A stretch of DNA of 44,329 bases. It comes from Bacteroidota bacterium (GTDB lineage: Bacteria; Bacteroidota; Bacteroidia; J057; JAJTIE01). The position numbers and the translations under genes are program-made. Positions 2,725-14,215 of the stretch are shown in pieces. Under the pieces are notes generated by a model. That model was not told the DNA's origin and searched no databases. It saw only the letters and a program-made list of their open reading frames with translations. Location of the stretch: NCBI GenBank assembly GCA_019638695.1, contig JAHBTG010000015.1, positions 1 through 44,329 on the forward strand, in the 5' to 3' direction. Position 1 is the first letter of the stretch; the number at the start of each line of letters is the position of its first letter.

Positions 2725-4235
2725 CAGTTAATGACGATACGGCCTATGCGGGTTGCTTTTGCCGTAATGGCCTGAATGATGACATCCCCATTCTTGCAAT
2801 CCAGGTAATACTTGGGACGGAGATATGATTTGATATCCTTTTTGCTGAAAAGCGCATATTTCTTGTACTGCCCACCGGGCTGCACAACAGCCATCATTGC
2901 CATGGATTTATTCCCCAGCTTCATATTCTTGAGTTTCTTATCCTCGTAGACATCCAGGTTTAATTTATTGTCATTATAGATAATATACACCTTGCCATTC
3001 TTCTCGGCGGCAATAATAGAAGAGAAGATTCCATTATCATTAATAGTATGTTGTGCTTTGGGAATACGGCAGTTCCACGCCAGTTTTCCGTCCTTATCCA
3101 GAGCAATAACCACTACATCCATATAATAGTAGTGATAAACGGTTCGCACATTCCCTTTACTGTCAGTATACGTGCTGATAATAAGTTCATACTGCTCAGC
3201 CACAACCGTCAGGCCCCCATCTTTGGCGGGTATCATCCGGCGGATGTAATAAGGCACTTTATCTGAATACTTAATCTTCTCGGGATACAACCCATCCACC
3301 TTATTGACAAACTTTTGAAGGATCTGCCCATTGGCCCCATTAAGTTTTACGATAAAGAAACCGGAGGTCACATCTGATCTTTTCTTTTCTGCATAAAAGC
3401 CGGTACACACCAGCGCATTAGAGAGATCTACCTTCATCTCAGCATCTTCTATGTAATACTCTCCCAGGTCAAGTTCATATTCCTGAACAGCACCTGTGGG
3501 ATTCTCCAGCTTTACGATCTTATAATAATAAGTAGACTGCCCACGGCTTCGTTCTTTGCGCTCTTTGTATATACGCATAAGCACGTATACGTTACCCATA
3601 TTGTCTATCTGCACCTGGGACATATCGGTGTTCTTATCCTTATGCGGCAGAGAGACCGATTTCTCCCAGATCACATCTTTCATGTTGCGGAAAACGACTC
3701 TAAAAGAGAATTTCTCTTCTTCGTTCCGCCGATACATTTCATCGCTGTAGAGCAGGAACATGCTGGAGTCTGGGGAAGGCACCACTCTAAATCCTCCTTT
3801 ATTATATTTTTTATTGGAAGTTATGGTAGCCATCTCCATAACACTCCCTTCTTTCTTGGCCTCCAGGTCAGATTGAGAAAGCAGGAGCTTGTGGGCATTA
3901 GATTTCTTGTCATAATACTCACTGAAATAATGGATAACTCCATCCATGATGTATGAAGTCTCAAAACGGATATTCTTTTCATCCGGGTTAAAAATATCTA
4001 CATCACGGGAGTATACCTCCTTCATCCTGCTATTAAGCTTCTGCAAATGGAATTTATACTTATTGCCACGATAAGCATACAGCACATAGGTATCATCCCC
4101 CACAATACCTGCATAGTCCTCCACATAGTATTTCTTATCTTTGAGCAGGTCTCCCCAGATAATATCCACATTTTGGGCAAATGCGCCTGAAACAAGCACC
4201 AGGGGTGTAAGCAGAAGGAGTAGATTTTTTTTCAT
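2724..4235 (-). CDS. Secreted protein of unknown function
   Basis: 503 residues beginning with a clear signal peptide (MKKN, a Leu-rich core, and SGAFAQ with cleavage after about residue 21). The mature part has no cysteine-rich, catalytic or sorting motif that I can name; it consists of many short beta-like stretches, often ending in aromatic residues, with repeated 'DxxGNVYVL'/'EKNGKVYIIY'-type strands (for example around residues 210 and 410), which may mean a beta-propeller-like fold. There is no T9SS C-terminal domain, so it is expected in the periplasm or outer membrane. The gene is distinctly AT-rich (3781-3840 has 19 G+C in 60 bases) compared with anmK. It overlaps anmK by one base and is divergent from the gene at 4299. 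Confidence 0.75.
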   Translation of the reverse strand: MKKNLLLLLTPLVLVSGAFAQNVDIIWGDLLKDKKYYVEDYAGIVGDDTYVLYAYRGNKYKFHLQKLNSRMKEVYSRDVDIFNPDEKNIRFETSYIMDGVIHYFSEYYDKKSNAHKLLLSQSDLEAKKEGSVMEMATITSNKKYNKGGFRVVPSPDSSMFLLYSDEMYRRNEEEKFSFRVVFRNMKDVIWEKSVSLPHKDKNTDMSQVQIDNMGNVYVLMRIYKERKERSRGQSTYYYKIVKLENPTGAVQEYELDLGEYYIEDAEMKVDLSNALVCTGFYAEKKRSDVTSGFFIVKLNGANGQILQKFVNKVDGLYPEKIKYSDKVPYYIRRMIPAKDGGLTVVAEQYELIISTYTDSKGNVRTVYHYYYMDVVVIALDKDGKLAWNCRIPKAQHTINDNGIFSSIIAAEKNGKVYIIYNDNKLNLDVYEDKKLKNMKLGNKSMAMMAVVQPGGQYKKYALFSKKDIKSYLRPKYYLDCKNGDVIIQAITAKATRIGRIVIN

Positions 4236-4279
4236 ATTGTATAAATCTTGGTTTTCTTTGAAAACTGATTTTCTTTGTG

Positions 4280-4287
4280 CAAAAATA
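4280..4287 (-). promoter_or_regulatory. -7 promoter box of the 503-aa secreted protein / anmK operon
   Basis: TATTTTTG on the minus strand fits TAnnTTTG; CTTG at 4311-4314 is a possible -33 element 23 bases upstream. It sits in the 63-base divergent gap and would give a leader of about 40 bases. Confidence 0.45.
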
Positions 4288-4298
4288 AAAAAATAGCT

Positions 4299-5069
4299 AT
4301 GCGCTTACCTCAAGTATCCTCTTTTTTAGGGTTTTTTCTTTACATTCAACTATTACTACCTCAGCAGGGACAAGCGCAGGACAGCACTTCTACCGAAACT
4401 CGGATCCGTGTATTTGAATATGGAGACCATGTCAAATCCTCTTCTCTGAGCACCTATAGTACGGCGTTCAAACTCAACCCATACGGACTGCTCAATGGAG
4501 AAATTCCGGTATTTGCCGAGCGGCGGATCACACCCAAAATCAGCCTGGAAGCCAGCCTGGGCATCACCATGAAAGATTATATAAGCCGCATGTACCAGCT
4601 TATGTGGGATGAAGAATATGAAAATCCGTTTGACAATGAACTGAGTGAGTTCCGAACACAAAAAACAGGTTATACCTACAGCCTGGCCTTTAGGTATTTC
4701 CCTTCTGCGGACTACGACGCCATTGAAGGTTTATTCTTCGGGATTATGTGGAAACACCGGGCACATTTCTCAGAGATAGATCCCGCGTCCATGAACGGGC
4801 GCTATCCGGAGGTCACATCTGTGGCCAAAGAGAAACGGGTAGTAAGAGACCTGGCGCTCATCTTTGGCCAGCAAATCTTCTGGGATGCCAATATATCCAG
4901 CGAGTGGATGATAGGCTTGGGCTACCGGAATACGGCAAATAAGTATCTGAACCTGATAGAGCAGCATGATCCTCAAACAGACACCTACGAACGTAAGGCA
5001 GTCATGCAGGAAAAACCCTTTACCGGGCCCTCTTTAATACTGGCCTGGAAACTCGGATTTGGCTTCTAA
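4299..5069 (+). CDS. Outer-membrane beta-barrel-like protein of unknown function
   Basis: 256 residues from the ATG at 4299 (a longer frame uses a TTG at 4275, which adds nothing to the signal peptide). The N-terminus is MRLPQVSSFLGFFLYIQLLL with a cut site near GQAQ. The mature chain has alternating amphipathic segments, an aromatic-rich pattern (YSLAFRYF, WMIGLGYR) and ends with a beta-strand terminating in Phe (LILAWKLGFGF), the classic end of an outer-membrane barrel. This resembles the DUF3575/outer membrane-beta-barrel type proteins common in Bacteroidota, but I cannot name the family. Moderately AT-rich, divergent from the 503-aa secreted protein; the two may be a functional pair (inference). 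Its TAA overlaps the opposite-strand gpx stop codon. Confidence 0.7.
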   Translation: MRLPQVSSFLGFFLYIQLLLPQQGQAQDSTSTETRIRVFEYGDHVKSSSLSTYSTAFKLNPYGLLNGEIPVFAERRITPKISLEASLGITMKDYISRMYQLMWDEEYENPFDNELSEFRTQKTGYTYSLAFRYFPSADYDAIEGLFFGIMWKHRAHFSEIDPASMNGRYPEVTSVAKEKRVVRDLALIFGQQIFWDANISSEWMIGLGYRNTANKYLNLIEQHDPQTDTYERKAVMQEKPFTGPSLILAWKLGFGF

Positions 5070-5542
5070 AGCTCCCGCGCAATCCTGTCCTGTACCTCTT
5101 CATCCAGCACAGACTGCTGGGGCTTGAACCAGGCCACCGGTTTACCCTGTTTGTTTACCAGGTATTTCTGGAAGTTCCACTGCACCTCCCCGCTTTTGGT
5201 GGCATCCTTCAGGAATTGATACAGCGGGTGAGCGGCCTCCCCCTTTACACTGATCTTCTCAAACATGGGGAAACTCACCCCGTAATTCCTTTGGCAAAAC
5301 TCCTGGATCTCCTCAGGAGAACCCGGTTCCTGGGCGCCAAAGTCATTGGCAGGAAATCCCAGGATCTCCAGCCCTTTGGGCTTCAGGCGGTCATACAGCT
5401 CCTGCAGTTCTGCATACTGGGGAGTGAGCCCGCATTTACTGGCCACATTGACCACAAGCACGGCCTTGCCGGCATAATCTGCCAGGGAAACCGGCTTGCC
5501 GTCCAGGCTGTTGAGGCCGAATTCATGGAGGGAAGAAGACAT
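5066..5542 (-). CDS. Glutathione peroxidase family thiol peroxidase (cytoplasmic)
   Basis: Reduces hydrogen and lipid hydroperoxides, in bacteria usually with thioredoxin as donor. The 158-aa product has the peroxidatic Cys37 in NVASKCGLTPQY, Gln71 in FPANDFGAQEPG, Trp122-Asn123 in WNFQKYLV (the Cys-Gln-Trp-Asn tetrad), and a second Cys83 in EEIQEFCQRNYG where thioredoxin-dependent members keep their resolving Cys. No selenocysteine and no signal peptide. It is 20 bases downstream of a paralogue and very likely co-transcribed with it. Its stop codon (5066-5068) overlaps the stop codon of the convergent gene (5067-5069). Confidence 0.95.
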   Translation of the reverse strand: MSSSLHEFGLNSLDGKPVSLADYAGKAVLVVNVASKCGLTPQYAELQELYDRLKPKGLEILGFPANDFGAQEPGSPEEIQEFCQRNYGVSFPMFEKISVKGEAAHPLYQFLKDATKSGEVQWNFQKYLVNKQGKPVAWFKPQQSVLDEEVQDRIAREL

Positions 5543-5562
5543 ATGATGAAGAAGGTTAGCAG

Positions 5563-6150
5563 TTACAGGAGTTTATTCAGCGCCGCTATAAAAGCAGGAT
5601 CATCGGGTTTCACGGCGCTTTTGAAATGAGCAGCGGGTTTACCGTCCTTACCCACCAGCACTTTGTTAAAGTTCCAGGAAATAGGCTCCCCGGTAGTTTC
5701 TGTGAGGTACCTGTAGAGGGGTGCCATATCATGGCCCTTCACGGAGATCTTGCTGAACAGCGGAAAGGTCACATTATAATTGGTACTGCAAAAGGACTTG
5801 ATATCCTTGTCCGTACCGGGTTCCTGGCCCATAAAGTTGTTAGCCGGGAAACCCAGCACCACCACGCCCTTGTCTGTATACTGTTCATAAAAAGCCTGCC
5901 AGTCGGCATACTGGCTGGTGTAGCCGCACTTGCTGGCCACATTGAGAAACACCAGCACCTTTCCCTTGTACTGAGACAGGCTCACATCCCGGCCTTCTAT
6001 ATCCTGCACAGTGAAATCATAGACACTGGCAGCTACAGGATGAGATTTTTTGCCTTTGGCAGAAACATCCTGCTGAGCGGTGGAGCAGGCTGCATTGCCC
6101 ACCAGGATAACCAGCAGGATAAGACGGATGTTGGAATAACGCATGACCAT
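5563..6150 (-). CDS. Glutathione peroxidase paralogue, exported (probable lipoprotein)
   Basis: 195 residues with the same catalytic set as its neighbour: Cys75 in NVASKCGYTSQY, Gln109 in FPANNFMGQEPG, the putative resolving Cys121 and Trp159-Asn160 in WNFNKVLV. Unlike the neighbour it has a hydrophobic N-terminus (RLILLVILVG) followed by NAACSTAQ, which reads as a lipobox with Cys22, although Asn at -3 is not ideal; simple signal peptidase I cleavage after TAQ is the alternative. It should act in the periplasm or at the envelope, so the pair would guard two compartments against lipid peroxides. Start is either ATG 6150 or ATG 6144; both keep the signal peptide. Confidence 0.92.
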   Translation of the reverse strand: MVMRYSNIRLILLVILVGNAACSTAQQDVSAKGKKSHPVAASVYDFTVQDIEGRDVSLSQYKGKVLVFLNVASKCGYTSQYADWQAFYEQYTDKGVVVLGFPANNFMGQEPGTDKDIKSFCSTNYNVTFPLFSKISVKGHDMAPLYRYLTETTGEPISWNFNKVLVGKDGKPAAHFKSAVKPDDPAFIAALNKLL

Positions 6151-6230
6151 GTGTTAAGATGGAAGTTCAAGATAAACAGATAACCCCAACGGCTTCCGGA
6201 AAAATTCACTGTTCACGCAAAAAAGCTGTA

Positions 6231-6238
6231 TACTTTTG
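6231..6238 (+). promoter_or_regulatory. -7 promoter box of the lipid A type acyltransferase gene
   Basis: TACTTTTG (extended TACTTTTGCAG) ends only 8 bases before the ATG at 6247, so the transcript should have a leader of at most a few bases. No good TTTG -33 element is seen at the expected distance. Confidence 0.6.
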
Positions 6239-6246
6239 CAGGTGAG

Positions 6247-7125
6247 ATGTCCCGGCTCGGTTTTTATATCGCCCTACCCTTTCTCTACCTGCTGGCCTAT
6301 ATGCCCATCAGGGTGTTGTATCTGCTGAGCAGCCTCCTGTATGTGCTGGTATATCACTTGCTGGGCTATCGCCGTAAGGTAGTGGAAACCAACCTGCGCA
6401 ATGCTTTCCCGGATAAAAGTCCGGCTGAGATCCGCCGGCTGAGCCGGAAATTCTACCGCTACCTGTGCGACCTGCTGCTGGAAACCTTCCAGACACTGCG
6501 GTTCAGCCGCCAGGAAGCGCTGCAACGCTGCCGGTTCACAGACAGCCACCTCTTTGAAGAGCTGGCAACCAGGGAGCAAAGCTGTATCATTGTTATGGGG
6601 CATTATGGCAACTGGGAATGGGGGGGCAACGCCATGAGCCTGCTGGGCAGCCACCAGCTCTATGTGATCTACCATCCCCTGAGTAATGCGCATTTTAACC
6701 GCTTTATCATACGTATGCGTACCCGGTTTGGCACGCGCCTGGTTCCCATGCAGGACTCCCTGCGCCAGATGCTGCGCATGCGCGGCGAGCGCACGGCCAC
6801 AGCTTTCATAGCAGACCAGACGCCTCCCCCACAGCACGCCTACTGGACCACTTTCCTGAACCAGGACACCCCTATCTTTTGGGGAACGGAAAAGATCGCC
6901 CGCAAGCTGAACCTGCCGGTAGTATATGCCGAGCTGGACAGGGAACGCCGCGGCAGATATACCATACGGCTGGAATTATTATGCGAGCACCCGGCAGATA
7001 CACCAGAAGGTTACCTGAGTGAACTGCACACCCAGCGGCTGGAGCAAACCATCCTGCGCAAGCCCGAATTATGGCTCTGGAGCCACCGCAGGTGGAAACA
7101 CACCAGACCACCCCTGCCTGCCTAG
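6247..7125 (+). CDS. LpxL/HtrB-family lysophospholipid / lipid A acyltransferase
   Basis: Transfers a secondary acyl chain onto a lipid A precursor or an aminolipid at the inner face of the cytoplasmic membrane. The 292-aa product has an N-terminal membrane anchor (residues about 6-38), the catalytic HX4E motif as His119-YGNW-Glu124 after IIVMG, and the C-terminal WLWSHRRWKHTRP signature found in LpxL/LpxM-type enzymes. Bacteroidota use this family both for lipid A and for N-acyl amino lipids, so the substrate is open. It precedes a fatty acid desaturase on the same strand, consistent with membrane lipid building. Confidence 0.88.
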   Translation: MSRLGFYIALPFLYLLAYMPIRVLYLLSSLLYVLVYHLLGYRRKVVETNLRNAFPDKSPAEIRRLSRKFYRYLCDLLLETFQTLRFSRQEALQRCRFTDSHLFEELATREQSCIIVMGHYGNWEWGGNAMSLLGSHQLYVIYHPLSNAHFNRFIIRMRTRFGTRLVPMQDSLRQMLRMRGERTATAFIADQTPPPQHAYWTTFLNQDTPIFWGTEKIARKLNLPVVYAELDRERRGRYTIRLELLCEHPADTPEGYLSELHTQRLEQTILRKPELWLWSHRRWKHTRPPLPA

Positions 7126-7245
7126 TATCTTTTCCTCAGCATACGCTGTTGTTTTAGAATGGAATTAGTCTGAACTTTAGGGGTTACTTTGCATGGCAGA
7201 ACTAATTATTCTCCCCATCTCTTTGTTACCGTAGAAATTCCCTCT

Positions 7246-8280
7246 ATGTCCTCTGCAAATCCTGTACCGGTCATTGCTGCTGAAACACCTGCCAGCCCTT
7301 CATCCGCACGAACCGGCAAAGACCTGATACTGGCCACTAAGCCCTTTGCGCGGGAAATCCGCTGGCGCAGCTGGTTTGCCGTATGCAGTACGCTGGTCCT
7401 TATGACCGGCGGGCTCACTGCGGCCGCCCTCCCCTTACACTGGGCTATCCGGCTGGCAGCCAGTGTGTTCTCCGGCCTTATCATCATCCGGATGTTTATC
7501 ATCTACCATGATCACCAGCATAGCACCATCCTGCAGGAATCTGCCATAGGTAATGTACTGATGAAAGCCTTTGGGGTATTTGTCCTGGCTCCAGCAAGCA
7601 TATGGAAGCGCTCGCATGACTTCCACCACAAGCATAATTCCAAGCTCTACACGGCCAGTATAGGATCCTACCCCATTCTCACACGGGAGAAATTCCTGAG
7701 CGCCACCCGGGCAGAACAAAAAGCCTACCTGCGCACCCGCAGTCCGCTGACCATAGCCCTGGGCTACTACAGCATGTTCCTGGGCGGCATGTGCCTGCGC
7801 AGCTTCCGCAGCAACCCCGGCAACCACTGGGATTCGCTGCTGGCCATTATTCTACATTTTGTAGGGTATGGCGCACTCTACCTGCTGGGAGGATGGCAAA
7901 CCATATTGTTCGCCTGGTTCATCCCGTTCCTCATCGCCACAGCCATAGGGGCTTACCTGTTCTATGTGCAACACAATTTCCCGGAAGTCACCTTCAAAAA
8001 CAAGGAAGAATGGACTTACCATGAAGCAGCTCTGGAGTCCTCCAGCTATATGCGCATGAGCAAGGTCATGCATTTTTTCACCGGCAACATCGGCTATCAC
8101 CACATCCATCACCTGAACGCGCGTATTCCCTTTTATCGCCTGCCGGAAGCCATGCGCGCCATACCAGAGCTGCAAAAGGCCAAAACCACCAGCTGGCACC
8201 CCCGGGATGTGATAGCCTGCCTGCGCCTGAAGGTATGGGATCCGGATAAAGGGCGCATGACGGGCATTCCCGGCGCCTAG
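7246..8280 (+). CDS. Membrane fatty acid desaturase
   Basis: Di-iron acyl desaturase introducing a double bond into membrane acyl chains. The 344-aa product has the three His boxes in order: HDHQH at 88-92, HDFHHKH at 124-130 and HHIHH in the C-terminal third within GNIGYHHIHHLN, separated by hydrophobic spans, including pairs near 45-65 and 70-87 and again before the third box. I use the ATG at 7246; a TTG at 7189 extends the frame but lies in the likely promoter (TTACTTTG at 7184-7191 is a near match to the -7 box). The order of boxes and the NARIPFY segment after box 3 fit acyl-lipid omega desaturases. The lipid substrate and position of desaturation are unknown. Confidence 0.93.
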   Translation: MSSANPVPVIAAETPASPSSARTGKDLILATKPFAREIRWRSWFAVCSTLVLMTGGLTAAALPLHWAIRLAASVFSGLIIIRMFIIYHDHQHSTILQESAIGNVLMKAFGVFVLAPASIWKRSHDFHHKHNSKLYTASIGSYPILTREKFLSATRAEQKAYLRTRSPLTIALGYYSMFLGGMCLRSFRSNPGNHWDSLLAIILHFVGYGALYLLGGWQTILFAWFIPFLIATAIGAYLFYVQHNFPEVTFKNKEEWTYHEAALESSSYMRMSKVMHFFTGNIGYHHIHHLNARIPFYRLPEAMRAIPELQKAKTTSWHPRDVIACLRLKVWDPDKGRMTGIPGA

Positions 8281-8329: not shown

Positions 8330-9616
8330 CTACAGTAGCGGGTTACGGTGTAAATGTGCTCCCATAAGCGTGCCCCATACCCTTCCAGTCAAAGGCATCC
8401 CTTCATAGGGCGTGAGCCGATAGGGTGAATGAATATCCCCGGGAGCGGGAGCCCACAAAGTCTCCGGCAAAAAGAGGGTGAGCGCTGCCGGCTCGCCCGG
8501 GGCCATCGCCTGCTGGGGAAGGTTAAATAACCGGCGGGGGGCGCTGGTCAAGGCATCCACCAGCTGGTCCAGCGTAGCATGCCCTTGCAATGCCGTCCAT
8601 GCCACCGCAAAAGCAGTCTCCAATGCCGGGGCACCAAAGGTGGCATAGTCAAACTCCAGCCGCTTCTCATCTATGGTAGCCGGTGCATGACCGGTAGCCA
8701 GCACTTCCAGCGTGCCGTCTGCCACCGCGGCCCGCAAGGCCAGGACATCCGCCTGGGTGCGCAGGGGAGGACGCATTTTGAAACGCGTATCAAAATGTGC
8801 CAGCGTATCATCTGTAAGCAGCAGGTACTGGGGAAACGTGGATGCCGTCAGCCGCAGGCCTTCTGCCCTGGCCTGCCGGATCTGTGCCAGGCTCTGCGCA
8901 CTGGAAATAGGGCTCAGGTGCAGGCGCCCGCCGGTATACCGCAGCATCTCCACGCAGGTGGATACCATCAGGACCTCCGCCAGGACGGGGCTGGGCTTAA
9001 GACCCAGGCGGGTAACGGCGGGACTTTCATTGGCGATGCCATTGCCCTCCACCGCGGCATTCAGGGGCATCTGCACCAGCAGGCCATCCGTAAGGGCAAG
9101 GTATTGCAGGGTGCGCATAAACACACCGGCATCCTGGATAGGGTTCAGACCATCGGAAAAAGCCACGGCACCGGCCTGGGAAAGTTCCACCAGCTCTGCC
9201 ATCTCTTTGCCGGCGCAGCTCAGCGTAGCGGCTCCCATAGGGTGCAGCCGCACCCTGAGCGACTGTGCGCGGCTGCGCAAAGCGCGCACTTGCTGGGCAT
9301 TGTCCTGGACGGGCTCTGTTCCGGGCAAGGTAATCACATCCGTAAAGCCACCGGCCAGCGCACTGGCCGCCAGGCTCTCCAGGGTATCGCGCTGTTCATA
9401 CCCGGGATCATTGAGCACACAGTGGGTATCTACCCACCCTGCACTCACATGCAGTCCCGGGTACGAAATGACCTCTTCACCGGGGGCTGCGTGCAGGCTG
9501 CTTGCCGGTTGAATGTCCTGTATATGTCCGTTGAGCACCCTGATATCCACCGCCTGGCGGTGCAAGGCATGCGCCGGTGCGATGAGTTTGACTTGGGAAA
9601 GCAGATAATCGGGCAT
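8330..9616 (-). CDS. Dihydroorotase-like protein, predicted catalytically inactive (PyrC'-type)
   Basis: The 428-aa product matches type I dihydroorotase along its whole length (DPGYE, AFSD, ARLGL-like, LLLTDD, FKMRPPLR, EFDYATFGAPALET), so the amidohydrolase barrel is intact. However the metal site is gone: the family's DxHxHxR reads DTHCVLN (residues 63-69; second His and Arg lost), the HCED position reads QMPL, the CHVS position reads SPIS, the TPHHL position reads FPQYL, and ATDHAP reads ATGHAP (Asp to Gly309). Only the first His and one Asp of FSD remain. Known inactive relatives (PyrC' of Pseudomonas) serve as structural partners of aspartate carbamoyltransferase; that role is inferred here. 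A separate active pyrC is expected elsewhere in the genome. 32 bases downstream of rodA, with its own promoter box. Confidence 0.9.
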   Translation of the reverse strand: MPDYLLSQVKLIAPAHALHRQAVDIRVLNGHIQDIQPASSLHAAPGEEVISYPGLHVSAGWVDTHCVLNDPGYEQRDTLESLAASALAGGFTDVITLPGTEPVQDNAQQVRALRSRAQSLRVRLHPMGAATLSCAGKEMAELVELSQAGAVAFSDGLNPIQDAGVFMRTLQYLALTDGLLVQMPLNAAVEGNGIANESPAVTRLGLKPSPVLAEVLMVSTCVEMLRYTGGRLHLSPISSAQSLAQIRQARAEGLRLTASTFPQYLLLTDDTLAHFDTRFKMRPPLRTQADVLALRAAVADGTLEVLATGHAPATIDEKRLEFDYATFGAPALETAFAVAWTALQGHATLDQLVDALTSAPRRLFNLPQQAMAPGEPAALTLFLPETLWAPAPGDIHSPYRLTPYEGMPLTGRVWGTLMGAHLHRNPLL

Positions 9617-9648: not shown

Positions 9649-10974
9649 CTAGTAGCTATCCGGGGCCAGAATATTCACACGGTTAGCATAGAAGTTGAGC
9701 ATCAGGAACACCATGATGGTAAAGGATATGAGGCTGGAACCGCCATAACTGAAGAAAGGCAGCGGAATGCCTATAACGGGCGCCAGGCCAATGGTCATGG
9801 CCACATTCACCAGCACATGGAAGAACAGGATGGAAACCACGGAATAACCAAAAATGCGGGCAAAACGCGATTTACTGCTCTCTGCCAGGTAAGTAAGCTG
9901 GTAGAGCAGGACAAAGAAAAGGACCAGAATAAGCGTAGTGCCTACCCAGCCAAATTCTTCGCCGGGGGTGCAAAAGATAAAATCCGTGTGCTGCTGCGGC
10001 ACAAAGTTATACTTGGTCTGGGTGCCATTCATAAAACCCTTGCCCCAGAACCCTCCGCTGCCGATGGCGATCTTGCTCTGCGTAGTGTTCCAGTTCACCC
10101 CCGTCGGGTCTATCTCCGGATTAAAAAGCGCCTGAATGCGCTGCTGCTGGTGGGGTTTGAGCTGGGCAATCACCAGGTTCACACTCAGGGACCACACACA
10201 CAGCAAACCGGAGATAAGCAGGGGGCCCAGGGTATTCTTGCCCCGTATGTTCAGGTACAGTCCTATGCGGGCCAGGAAGCGGGCAATGGATTTGCGCAGG
10301 TAATAAATGAGCGTAAGCCCCAGGATAATACTGACCACCACATAAATGGACAAGCCGGCAATGACCATAACCGCCAAAGCCACCAGCGCCATGAGCAAGA
10401 GGAAAATGGCAACGGACATGCCTTCCCGCAGGAACATAAAGACAAATGAGCCAAAGACCAGCGCAGTGCCGGTATCTTTTTGCAGGAGCACAATAATGAC
10501 CGGCACCAGGATAATGGCCAGCAGGCCCAGGCGGTCCCGACCGCTGGAGAGGCTGAAATTATGCCGGGACATAAACTTGGCCAGCACCAGGCAAGTGCCC
10601 AACTTGGCAAATTCAGAGGGCTGTATGCCCACCCCGCCCACGCTGAACCAGGCACGGGCACCGTTAATGTCCTTGCCTACGAACAATACCAGGATGCAGA
10701 GCACCAGCGCCAGGCCATATGCCCCCCAGGCGACGAACTGCACCAGTTTGAGATCTACGGTGAGCGTAACAAAACAGAGTATTCCGCACAAGACAATGAA
10801 CAGGAACTGCTTACCCTGGGGTTTGTCAAAATTAACCAGGTCTGCCCAGAAACCTTCTTGCGTGGCGCCGCTGGCAGCATAGATATTCAACCAGCCAAAA
10901 AGGACAAAAACCACATAAATGCCTACTGTAATCCAGTCCAGCTTAAGCTCAGAGCGAAGGGAGGTTGCCACCAT
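9649..10974 (-). CDS. rodA: Rod-shape peptidoglycan glycosyltransferase RodA
   Basis: SEDS-family lipid II polymerase of the elongasome, in the cytoplasmic membrane, partner of PBP2. The 441-aa product has about ten hydrophobic segments and family landmarks: GVGIQPSEFAKLG, LLQKDTGTALVF (with the Asp of the active site region), LKPHQQQRI, GSGGFWGKGF, FVPQQHTDFIF, GEEFGWVG and GIPLPFFSYGGSS near the end. It is longer than the Escherichia coli protein because of an extra loop/membrane segment around residues 200-260, which is normal in Bacteroidota. The usual neighbours mreBCD and mrdA are not in this window. The start is ATG 10974; a -7 box abuts it, so translation could even begin at the second codon, GTG. 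Confidence 0.95.
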   Translation of the reverse strand: MVATSLRSELKLDWITVGIYVVFVLFGWLNIYAASGATQEGFWADLVNFDKPQGKQFLFIVLCGILCFVTLTVDLKLVQFVAWGAYGLALVLCILVLFVGKDINGARAWFSVGGVGIQPSEFAKLGTCLVLAKFMSRHNFSLSSGRDRLGLLAIILVPVIIVLLQKDTGTALVFGSFVFMFLREGMSVAIFLLLMALVALAVMVIAGLSIYVVVSIILGLTLIYYLRKSIARFLARIGLYLNIRGKNTLGPLLISGLLCVWSLSVNLVIAQLKPHQQQRIQALFNPEIDPTGVNWNTTQSKIAIGSGGFWGKGFMNGTQTKYNFVPQQHTDFIFCTPGEEFGWVGTTLILVLFFVLLYQLTYLAESSKSRFARIFGYSVVSILFFHVLVNVAMTIGLAPVIGIPLPFFSYGGSSLISFTIMVFLMLNFYANRVNILAPDSY

Positions 10975-11017: not shown

Positions 11018-14000
11018 TTATCTCACCAGGGTAACCCCGCCATTGGCAGAGACCTTTTTGCCCTGGCTGTCCAGTCCTTCATACAGCCACACATAAACGC
11101 CTTCGGGCACATCTTCCCCGGTTTCATCCCGCCCGTCCCAGGCAACGGATTCTCCCGTAGCCGCCAGGCTGCGCACCAGGGTACCCCAGCGGCTATAGAT
11201 ACGCAGGGTACTGCTGACGATGTTTTTGCCGTAGATCAGGAAGTCATCATTCAGTCCGTCATTATTGGGGCTGAAGGCCGAAGGATAGGCCAGGGAAGGC
11301 CTGGAAGAGAATTCCACCTGGCGGCTGATCACATCCGTACACCCGCGGTCCGTGGTGGCCCGCAGGGTAACCGTATAGACGCCTTCCCGTGGAAAGGTCA
11401 CATTAATGGTCTCCGTGGCGGCCCCCGATACCAGGTTGGGAGACACCTCCCAGCGCAGGGTCTGGTAGCCGCTGGAAGTATTGGTAAAGGTCAGCAGGCC
11501 CGTGCTCTCGATATCCAGCGGGTGGCTGATATCCACAGAGGACAGGAAGTTAGCCTGCGGATTGGGCCACACATTTACATTGAGCACATGCCGCAGGGTG
11601 CAGCCGGCACCTCCGCCCTGGCGCCGGGCAATGATGGTCAGCTGGTCGGTCACCGGGGCACCGGTGGGGTAATTTATCTGCTGCACATTGGTGCCCAGGT
11701 TCCCAAATCGGTTACTGATCCAGCTGGCTTCTATACCATCCGGCAAACGGGGGCTAAAGGGCTGGCCCACACACAGGTTTACCGGAGAGGGCGGCAGCGT
11801 GGAGGAAATATCCGCCAGGGTCACCCCGCTTTGCACCGTGATCACCTTGGTCTTGGGACCGGAGATGCCCAAAGGCGTGGTAGCATCGAAATGGATGGTA
11901 TAGGTGCCCGGTTCATGGAACTGCAGCCGGATACCCTGTGAGTTTTGCTCAACAATGGTAAAGGCACCGGGGGTGTTGGGCGTAATGGCGTAATTAACCA
12001 CAGCAATGGGCCCCAGTGAAGGCGTAATGCGCTGAAAAGACTCCGCTTCCTCACACAGGCTGGCGCTCCCGCTCAGGGTAATGGCCGCAGGGTTACCACC
12101 CACGATCACATCATAAGCCGGGTAGAAGGGCCCGGAACAGGCAGGGTCATTACTGAGGGCACGCACCTCTATGGCAAATGTACCCACCGTAAGCCCCGGC
12201 GTGCTGCTGAGCAGCAGGTTATCCGATTCCGCACCGGGAATGATTTGTCCGCCAAAGCGCCACTGGAACTTGCGCCCGTATTCATAGGTGATGTTCGAAT
12301 TGGCATAATCGATCTCCACATAGTATTGCTTGGGACTGTTGCAGGAGCAGATGATGCGGTCGTCCACAGTGGGATTGGGGATCTCGTCAAAGGTTACCGG
12401 GTCCCGCATGATCAGGCGGATGACCCCGGTGGATACCGTATTGAGTGTAAAGCGAATAATATTACCCTTCTTCACCCCATTGGGGAAGCTGGGATGATAC
12501 GCCTCTATGCGGGCATAATAAAAGAATATGGTTTCATCAAAAGGAGTGGGCGGCCGGTACCCCTGGGCAAACATGGAATTATAATTACCCGGGGGAAACG
12601 AGAAGGTAAAAGTACCGGAAGAATCCTGGGTCACCAGGATGTCCGGAAACCCGCCGGGATTGGGCAGGTTATCCAATACGCCATCTATGGGGAACTGGTC
12701 GCGCGTTTGCAGCAGCTTCAGCTTGATCTGCGTGCCCACAGGATAAGTGCGCACGGTACTGTCGGAAAAGGTTACGGAATGCGTACTGGGCGCATTCGTG
12801 GGGATACAGGCCGTGAAATCCCGTCCGCCGTTGGTGAGGATATCTGCACGGCGAATACAGAACGGGCCGGCAGGCACCATATTCACCGCCTGTGCCGGGC
12901 GGGTGGGCCGGATGCGTACATAATAACCGCAGCCGGGAGGAATATCCGGCGTACCCGGACTGGAGTCTACTTTTCCGCCCACACTGCCCGACGGCGGAGA
13001 AGGAGGATAGGCAGCATTGTCCTGGGTACGGCCCAGTATCCAGGGGTCGGAAAAATCGCCCAGGGTATCGCTCAGTTCAATGATGTACTCATTGGTGGCG
13101 CCGTAGCTGCCCGTAGAACGGAAGTTGACATCTATAATGCTGCTGAGCGCGACTGAATCTTCATAGGCCACAATAGGCAAAGCGGTCTCCACCAGGTTCG
13201 GACACACTATGATATTGATGCTGTTGCTGGCAGGGCTATTGGCCGTAAAGAAGCCATTGTCATACACCACACGTACAGACCGGCTACCGAGCAGGTTATC
13301 GGGCAGGTCTACAAAGAAGAACTCGTCTCGCTCCACACCGTCTCCATTGCTGGTATAACCGGCATAACTTTCCAGGATCACCGGCGGAGAAGGGAACGTA
13401 CCGCTGGCCGTACTCAGCTCCAGCTGGATGATGCCGTCGCACAGGGGGACCGAAGAAGACACTTTCACCCGGTTGAGTTCGCCTTCCTGGCACACATTGT
13501 CTGTGGGGTCTATGCGGGCCGTCAGCACCTGGGGAATAAAGGACGGGTTCAGCTCTCCGCTGACAATGACATCATCTATGGCAAAGGGTATGGTGGGCGC
13601 GCCGCCGGTGGCATTCACCCAGCGAAAAGCAAACCGCAGGCGGGATTTGTCTGCAAACTCGGGCATACGCACCGTCTCCTGCCGCCAGCCGGACTGGCTG
13701 TTGTATTGCGTGCGGCCGTCGGTACTGGTAGTAGGCAACCAGGAACTGCCGCCGTCCGTGCTGTACAGGACCTCTCCATAGGCATTGGCATTGCCCTCGC
13801 TCACCCAGAAGAAGGTGAGCGTCACATTCACCAAGTGGTGGGTGCAGAAATCCCGGTTGATCACCAGCTGGTGCTGGGAAGCGCTGGCCGGGTCAAATGC
13901 AGTATTGGACACAGGCAGGGTGGTATTGCCCACGTGCCAGTAACCCATATTAGGATCCGCTATCGTACCTCCCGTGGCCAGCGCCTGACTCGGCGTGTTG

Positions 14001-14215
14001 GGGTACGTACCATTCCCGGTATAGCTACTGTTCCATAACCAGGAATTATTACCGGAGCCTCCGGCAGCTACCTGGCCCACACCCGCAGACGCATTAAAAT
14101 TCTGAAAGAAGAGTATAAACTGCGCTTGTACCGGACCAGCACCAAGCAGTATAGCCCATAGAATAAGTTGACGTAGCCGCATTAAGAAATACATTCTTTT
14201 TGAATACCATTTCAT
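11018..14215 (-). CDS. Large T9SS type B cargo protein with PKD-like domain
   Basis: 1065 residues, exported and surface-attached by the type IX secretion system. A signal peptide follows one of three possible Met (14215, 14194, 14182; the last, MRLRQLILW, gives the most normal length) and ends near PVQAQ. After it come a lectin/jelly-roll-like beta region (about residues 40-220, with FAIDDVIVSG typical of MAM-like or choice-of-anchor domains), several Ig-like beta domains, a PKD-like domain about 900-970 (FTNTSSGYQTLRWEV ... VTLRATTDRGC) and the gliding-motility-associated C-terminal domain in the last 87 residues (SAFSPNNDGLNDDF, IYSRWG, WDGRDETG, PEGVYVW). Function beyond adhesion or matrix building cannot be told. 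Divergent from another type B protein. Confidence 0.93.
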   Translation of the reverse strand: MKWYSKRMYFLMRLRQLILWAILLGAGPVQAQFILFFQNFNASAGVGQVAAGGSGNNSWLWNSSYTGNGTYPNTPSQALATGGTIADPNMGYWHVGNTTLPVSNTAFDPASASQHQLVINRDFCTHHLVNVTLTFFWVSEGNANAYGEVLYSTDGGSSWLPTTSTDGRTQYNSQSGWRQETVRMPEFADKSRLRFAFRWVNATGGAPTIPFAIDDVIVSGELNPSFIPQVLTARIDPTDNVCQEGELNRVKVSSSVPLCDGIIQLELSTASGTFPSPPVILESYAGYTSNGDGVERDEFFFVDLPDNLLGSRSVRVVYDNGFFTANSPASNSINIIVCPNLVETALPIVAYEDSVALSSIIDVNFRSTGSYGATNEYIIELSDTLGDFSDPWILGRTQDNAAYPPSPPSGSVGGKVDSSPGTPDIPPGCGYYVRIRPTRPAQAVNMVPAGPFCIRRADILTNGGRDFTACIPTNAPSTHSVTFSDSTVRTYPVGTQIKLKLLQTRDQFPIDGVLDNLPNPGGFPDILVTQDSSGTFTFSFPPGNYNSMFAQGYRPPTPFDETIFFYYARIEAYHPSFPNGVKKGNIIRFTLNTVSTGVIRLIMRDPVTFDEIPNPTVDDRIICSCNSPKQYYVEIDYANSNITYEYGRKFQWRFGGQIIPGAESDNLLLSSTPGLTVGTFAIEVRALSNDPACSGPFYPAYDVIVGGNPAAITLSGSASLCEEAESFQRITPSLGPIAVVNYAITPNTPGAFTIVEQNSQGIRLQFHEPGTYTIHFDATTPLGISGPKTKVITVQSGVTLADISSTLPPSPVNLCVGQPFSPRLPDGIEASWISNRFGNLGTNVQQINYPTGAPVTDQLTIIARRQGGGAGCTLRHVLNVNVWPNPQANFLSSVDISHPLDIESTGLLTFTNTSSGYQTLRWEVSPNLVSGAATETINVTFPREGVYTVTLRATTDRGCTDVISRQVEFSSRPSLAYPSAFSPNNDGLNDDFLIYGKNIVSSTLRIYSRWGTLVRSLAATGESVAWDGRDETGEDVPEGVYVWLYEGLDSQGKKVSANGGVTLVR

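Follow-up and report, generated by a model that had tools for sequence, protein, structure and literature searches.

A dihydroorotase homologue with an eroded metal site, a probable noncatalytic partner of PyrB in a class of Bacteroidota

The stretch of DNA analyzed here (the window; 44,329 nucleotides) carries a gene for a homologue of class I dihydroorotase (DHO) whose metal site has been erased. The explanation that fits best, and that we consider likely, is that this pseudo-dihydroorotase (pDHO) is a dead class I DHO kept as a structural, and perhaps regulatory, partner of PyrB, by analogy with the class A2 ATCases of Pseudomonas. PyrB, which is the known kind of partner for such a protein, tracks pDHO across the window's class even though the two genes lie far apart. 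More broadly, and with somewhat less assurance, we favor the view that an active DHO has turned into a noncatalytic ATCase subunit at least three times in the phylum (in the window's class, in sister family f11, and in genome G096), and that in the window's class this subunit is unlinked from pyrB, near-universal, and lost together with a change in PyrB type.

The window protein and its metal site

An open reading frame of 428 aa with an ATG start occupies 8330-9616 on the minus strand; read on the plus strand, this interval is interrupted by many stops. The encoded protein matched the class I DHO family TIGR00857 over its full length at 276.2 bits, just under the curated cutoff of 279.05, and matched DHOs in the PDB down to an E value of 2.8e-58. 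A Pfam search at E<=0.001 returned no family. The AlphaFold model (mean pLDDT, 79.9; pTM, 0.85) aligned with the seven best-ranked DHO structures at TMq values of 0.82-0.86 and with the Bacillus and Aquifex DHOs at TM values of 0.85-0.86. Family, PDB, model, and fold matches thus all indicate a full-length class I DHO fold. Model confidence was low at residues 71-75, 186-208, 274-284, and 314-328, segments that appear to be the active-site loops.

The metal ligands of class I DHOs, which we take to be H59, H61, D151, H178, H231, and D304 (Bacillus-type numbering), were read from an alignment whose ligand columns are anchored on the Bacillus DHO row. At these columns the window protein has H65, V67, G156, M183, P236, and G309, which leaves it one of the six ligands (H65) rather than the full set of a catalytic type I DHO. 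On the substrate side, R63 is replaced by N69 and N93 by G99. The features are given below, with window coordinates of the ligand residues converted by hand from residue numbers.

8330..9616, minus strand: pseudo-dihydroorotase (pDHO), class I DHO fold with an erased metal site (from the open reading frame, family, fold, and ligand map)
9410..9430, minus strand: residues 63-69, DTHCVLN; the first His ligand is kept as H65, the second is lost (V67), and the substrate Arg is now N69
9149..9154, minus strand: residues 155-156, DG; in TDDG the second D is the ligand Asp, here G156
9068..9070, minus strand: M183, where HCED has its ligand His
8909..8911, minus strand: P236, where HVCHVS has its ligand His
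8690..8692, minus strand: G309, where ATDHAP has the Asp that is both catalytic and a ligand
9649..10974, minus strand: rodA, 32 bp upstream of pDHO and co-oriented, above the cutoffs of NF037961 and TIGR02210; a neighboring gene that probably does not belong to the system

An earlier note on this DNA had claimed that nearly every metal- or substrate-binding position is replaced, and the alignment bears this out. It had also held that all of the motifs it named lost their His or Asp, which is true of most of them, but the first His of DxHxH and the His of ATDH remain. The latter, which follows D304, is retained as H310, and 138 of the 139 tallied rows have it. The alignment that the note had proposed as a check revealed no ligands shifted elsewhere; because the motifs of the window protein fall in the same alignment columns as those of its relatives, the shifted-ligand explanation was ruled out. 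The window pDHO is very probably inactive as a DHO. This is an inference, since activity is reported for a Pseudomonas DHO paralogue that lacks the zinc ligands (PMC2770081, citing Brichta 2004).

Ligand loss across the class and phylum

All 58 same-class sequences keep only 0-3 of the six ligands. The same is true of all 80 named records, of which 79 are Bacteroidota by taxonomy and one is filed under Alphaproteobacteria, and of a copy on a Rufibacter plasmid, and none of the 139 class-level relatives examined kept more than three. The replacing residues at the ligand columns differ between lineages within the class. By contrast, 55 of the 60 DHOs examined from other classes of the phylum have all six ligands (motifs were read in 60 of the 102 outgroup genomes with a match). 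This difference excludes chance as the source of the ligand loss. The Nonomuraea row also has six of six.

The five eroded exceptions among the 60 sister-class DHOs belong to family f11 (G001, G006, G011, and G016) and to G096. Two DHO trees bear on their origin. The second, which took in 32 of the 58 class rows, 27 of the 55 intact outgroup rows, and five of the six plasmid-record rows, united the class pDHOs in one clade (support, 98/99) and placed f11 and G096 elsewhere; long-branch rows such as G162, G168, G226, G174, G185, G258, G264, and G041 were left out of it, as was Methylobacterium. The first tree, which had more long-branch rows and omitted the paralogue of G273, eight outgroups that were near duplicates, and further genomes that lack pDHO, put G001 of f11 inside the pDHO group, and the separateness of f11 therefore rests on the second tree. 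Among the rows examined in the trees, the class pDHOs are one clade within rows of their own phylum. Because f11 and G096 fall outside this clade, the sequences suggest that DHO was probably eroded three separate times in the phylum: in the window's class, in f11, and in G096.

Several individual records are also worth pointing out. The separately eroded DHO of G096 (G096:C130; L300) keeps two of six ligands, and the same genome has a PRK09236-type DHO. Replicon DHOs of Azospirillum (L269) and Methylobacterium (L273) keep three and two of six, respectively, and may represent pseudo-DHOs in Alphaproteobacteria. Plasmid 2 of Rufibacter tibetensis (L275; 12.5 kb) carries its pDHO gene together with DUF4199 and glycosyltransferase genes. 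A record titled Sphingomonadales (L107) contains a typical Bacteroidota pDHO and is probably mislabeled or misbinned.

A second, intact DHO and selection on the pDHO gene

The window genome encodes a separate DHO of the active type (G000:C82:2963-4327, minus strand), as class A2 systems do. Its DxHxH, K, HCED, HIST, and ATDHAP motifs are intact, and it scores 701 bits against NF006688 (cutoff, 535). The search for a second intact pyrC and a pyrB, which had been suggested earlier, thus found both elsewhere in the genome. A relative of this second DHO is present in 144 of the 148 class genomes, in G165 only at 7.6e-41. Of the four genomes where it is missing, G216 has an E. coli-type PyrC and keeps pDHO, G072 has an intact DHO directly behind pyrB, and G177 and G207 are without the second DHO, PyrB, and pDHO alike. 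Outside the class, relatives at strong scores (1e-110 or better) were seen only in G087, G096, and G109. None was found in f11 at E<=1e-40; all four f11 genomes carry another DHO-like protein, and the copy in G001 (L320) reads as intact. The DHO of G072 (L178) groups with rows of other phyla in the first DHO tree and may have been transferred.

The pDHO gene is itself under selection, as close pairs show dN/dS values of 0.050-0.080 (nine unsaturated of 11 pairs; two were saturated). The corresponding values for PyrB were 0.006-0.025 in eight unsaturated pairs, with two more saturated; pDHO is constrained, less tightly than PyrB. The proposal that this is a conserved gene kept for a probably noncatalytic role is accordingly supported, with the intact DHO and pyrB located elsewhere in the genome.

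Co-occurrence of pDHO and PyrB

The window genome's own PyrB (G000:C105:6048-6992) is encoded in an EVE-pyrR-pyrB run. The pDHO gene is on another contig (C54) and hence is not directly next to pyrB, in keeping with what had been read from the window. No PyrI was found in the window genome (G000), so that PyrB is present without PyrI, as in class A2.

Across the class sample (n = 148), native-type PyrB, defined by an E value of <=1e-111 to the window genome's own PyrB or by fragments at 64-72% identity, occurs together with pDHO in 129 of 129 genomes. None of the 14 genomes with another PyrB type has pDHO; G072, whose PyrB is paired with an intact DHO, is a third arrangement and was counted apart. 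PyrB was not found in four of the 148 genomes, namely, G177, G207, the draft G260, in which pDHO is present, and G162, which has a divergent pDHO-like gene. PyrI was detected in seven of 148 class genomes, all among the 14 with another PyrB and no pDHO, and in 0 of 148 genomes of the phylum sample. The cut for pDHO was the gap between E values of 1.6e-47 (G168, a degenerate pDHO) and 2.3e-41 (G273, an intact paralogue), and pDHO-lacking genomes other than G273 were judged on score alone.

In a PyrB tree that takes in 49 of the 129 native genomes and all 14 nonnative ones, the 49 native PyrBs form one clade (96/96), and all PyrBs of pDHO-lacking genomes fall outside it. The change in PyrB type can be seen even within a genus: the PyrB of G220 is of a foreign type and linked to carAB, and pDHO is absent there, whereas its congeners G160, G193, G242, and G263 combine native PyrB with pDHO. 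As a separate observation, the foreign-type pyrB by carAB in G220 (L185, 5251-8243) is followed by an acyltransferase-desaturase-like pair that resembles window positions 6247-8280.

It is also important to consider family f68, in which all four genomes (G180, G209, G233, and G255) lack pDHO. G209 has the EVE-pyrR-pyrB order of the window genome, and placement of f68 inside the native PyrB clade was not rejected (p-AU, 0.457, from a tree that kept 25 of the 49 pDHO rows and did not include E. coli, G012, G220, or the rows with PyrI). Native PyrB may therefore be able to live without pDHO; f68 may have a native but strongly diverged PyrB, which would speak against strict dependence. As its PyrB branch is long (1.58-1.99), PyrB was either replaced or much changed after pDHO was lost. 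From family labels, we estimate that pDHO was lost independently in only a few lineages (about five or six). Much of the 129/129 co-occurrence goes back to shared ancestry.

Linkage to pyrB differs across the phylum. In 27 of the 102 sister-class genomes with a match, including the four of f11, pyrB is directly upstream of a class I DHO gene (pairs were counted by eye from coordinates). In Pseudomonas, the PyrC' gene directly adjoins pyrB. An eroded DHO beside pyrB was found only in sister family f11; in G006 (L276), pyrB (4036-4980) overlaps the eroded DHO gene (4977-6284) by 4 bp, which, judged from the sequence, is a Pseudomonas-like arrangement inside the same phylum. The closest approach of pDHO and pyrB in the window's class is about 2.9 kb, on opposite strands (G228).

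Residue 104 of PyrB was tried as an interface marker and dropped. Within the phylum, this position (numbered on the window genome's PyrB, L176) separates PyrBs partnered by a DHO or pDHO from unpartnered ones: 48 of 49 pDHO rows and all four f11 rows have K, and all 25 active-DHO rows have K or R. It is G in f68, G195, G012, and five no-DHO rows, and absent in class B. It is also G in Nonomuraea and in Aquifex, and because the Aquifex PyrB binds DHO yet has G there, the residue is no proof of an interface.

Genomic neighborhood

Standing alone behind rodA, the window pDHO had been suggested to have a new partner. This is not borne out and was rejected as a general claim: apart from the window, rodA adjoins pDHO only in G256 (L188), a genome of the same family, and none of the 80 named loci has this arrangement; an adjacency so specific to one family does not indicate a new partner. 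Likewise, no pyrB was present in the fetched flank of any of the 80 named pDHO loci, and no pyr gene is a regular neighbor of pDHO in the class. In relatives, BatA-like, DUF4199, GT2, and other genes are common neighbors; in a comparison of 87 loci, such clusters lay on one side of the gene in 40, 43, and 45 loci, with each neighbor family assigned from one example. Other parts of the window include two adjoining glutathione peroxidase-like genes (5066-6150, minus strand) and a 1,065-aa protein that carries a type B sorting domain of type IX secretion (11018-14215).

Alternative explanations

The genes around pDHO raise the possibility that the dead DHO has taken on a function that has nothing to do with ATCase, perhaps one in the cell envelope together with these neighbors, and that its co-distribution with PyrB reflects shared vertical inheritance. 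The co-oriented rodA at 32 bp, the BatA-like, DUF4199, and GT2 genes beside pDHO in relatives in place of pyr genes, and the lack of pyrB in the flanks of the named loci would all fit such a role. However, the neighbors vary by lineage, with rodA beside pDHO in none of the 80 named loci, and loss of pDHO coincides with a change in PyrB type, even within the genus of G220; we regard this explanation as unlikely. Less likely still, pDHO might still catalyze the DHO reaction, or a related one, though the classic ligands are gone, like the P. aeruginosa PyrC paralogue reported active (PMC2770081). Some pDHOs do keep up to three of six ligands, but the replacements differ by lineage, the substrate residues drift, the window protein keeps a single ligand, and a second DHO of intact type is nearly always present.

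That second DHO could itself be what pDHO partners or regulates, instead of PyrB, as both genes are in nearly all class genomes. This seems very improbable: the 14 other-PyrB genomes, which have no pDHO, all carry the second DHO as well, and G216 keeps pDHO though its second DHO has been replaced. Finally, a decaying pseudogene copy of pyrC would explain the lost catalytic residues and perhaps the longer median end branch of pDHO (0.6 in the first DHO tree, versus 0.22 for PyrB in the PyrB tree). We find this hardly credible for a gene whose frame is open and free of inner stops in every row listed, whose dN/dS is well below 1, and which is retained across the class.

Proposed origin and significance

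A noncatalytic partner of PyrB thus remains the reading we prefer, and the following course of events would account for it. The ancestral state of the phylum may have been a pyrB-pyrC pair encoding an ATCase-DHO complex. Another DHO would then have taken over the reaction, and the old subunit would have lost its active site. The dead subunit would have been retained because PyrB would need it to assemble or stay stable, and in the window's class its gene would then have moved away from pyrB. By analogy with the P. aeruginosa complex, pDHO would bind PyrB and PyrB would depend on it; that the dependence goes so far as to leave PyrB inactive without pDHO we rate about as likely as not.

Should this hold, what most genomes of a large bacterial class list as a dihydroorotase gene would encode a pseudoenzyme and a structural part of ATCase, which would affect metabolic models and the interpretation of essential genes. 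The phylum would also offer a natural series (an active pair, an eroded pair, an unlinked eroded subunit, and loss upon PyrB replacement) in which the dependence of an ATCase on a dead partner could be tested directly.

Comparison with known systems

Among the papers listed by searches of open-access PMC, none on a pseudo-DHO of Bacteroidota was seen. An older survey of ATCase quaternary structures (Labedan and co-workers, 2004) may mention it, so a prior mention is possible.

Among related proteins, the PRK09236-type DHO (NF006688; Porphyromonas 2gwn in the fold list) is also present in the window genome. Unlike the window pDHO, it has an intact Lys-type active site and is the likely catalyst. 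The DHO-ATCase dodecamer of Aquifex aeolicus (class A1; 3d6n and 4bjh) is the closest solved fold with an ATCase partner (3d6n; TM, 0.85), and 3d6n_B is the best PDB match of the window genome's PyrB. However, the Aquifex DHO is catalytic, whereas the window protein keeps only one of six ligands. In fungal CAD-like proteins (PMC7053772), an inactive DHO fold is likewise kept with ATCase. There, the pseudo-DHO is a domain of a fused multidomain eukaryotic protein, while the window pDHO is a free-standing gene.

The nearest parallel is PyrC' of Pseudomonas. In P. aeruginosa, PyrB stays monomeric and inactive as long as pDHO is not bound to it, and the complex has been reconstituted (PMC7053772). 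In contrast to that system, the window gene lies apart from pyrB, its erosion appears to have arisen inside Bacteroidota, and the complex is putative. The likeness is that both are full-length class I DHO homologues that have lost their metal ligands, as expected of a class A2 pseudo-DHO subunit, and that both are kept alongside an active DHO encoded elsewhere and a PyrB without PyrI.
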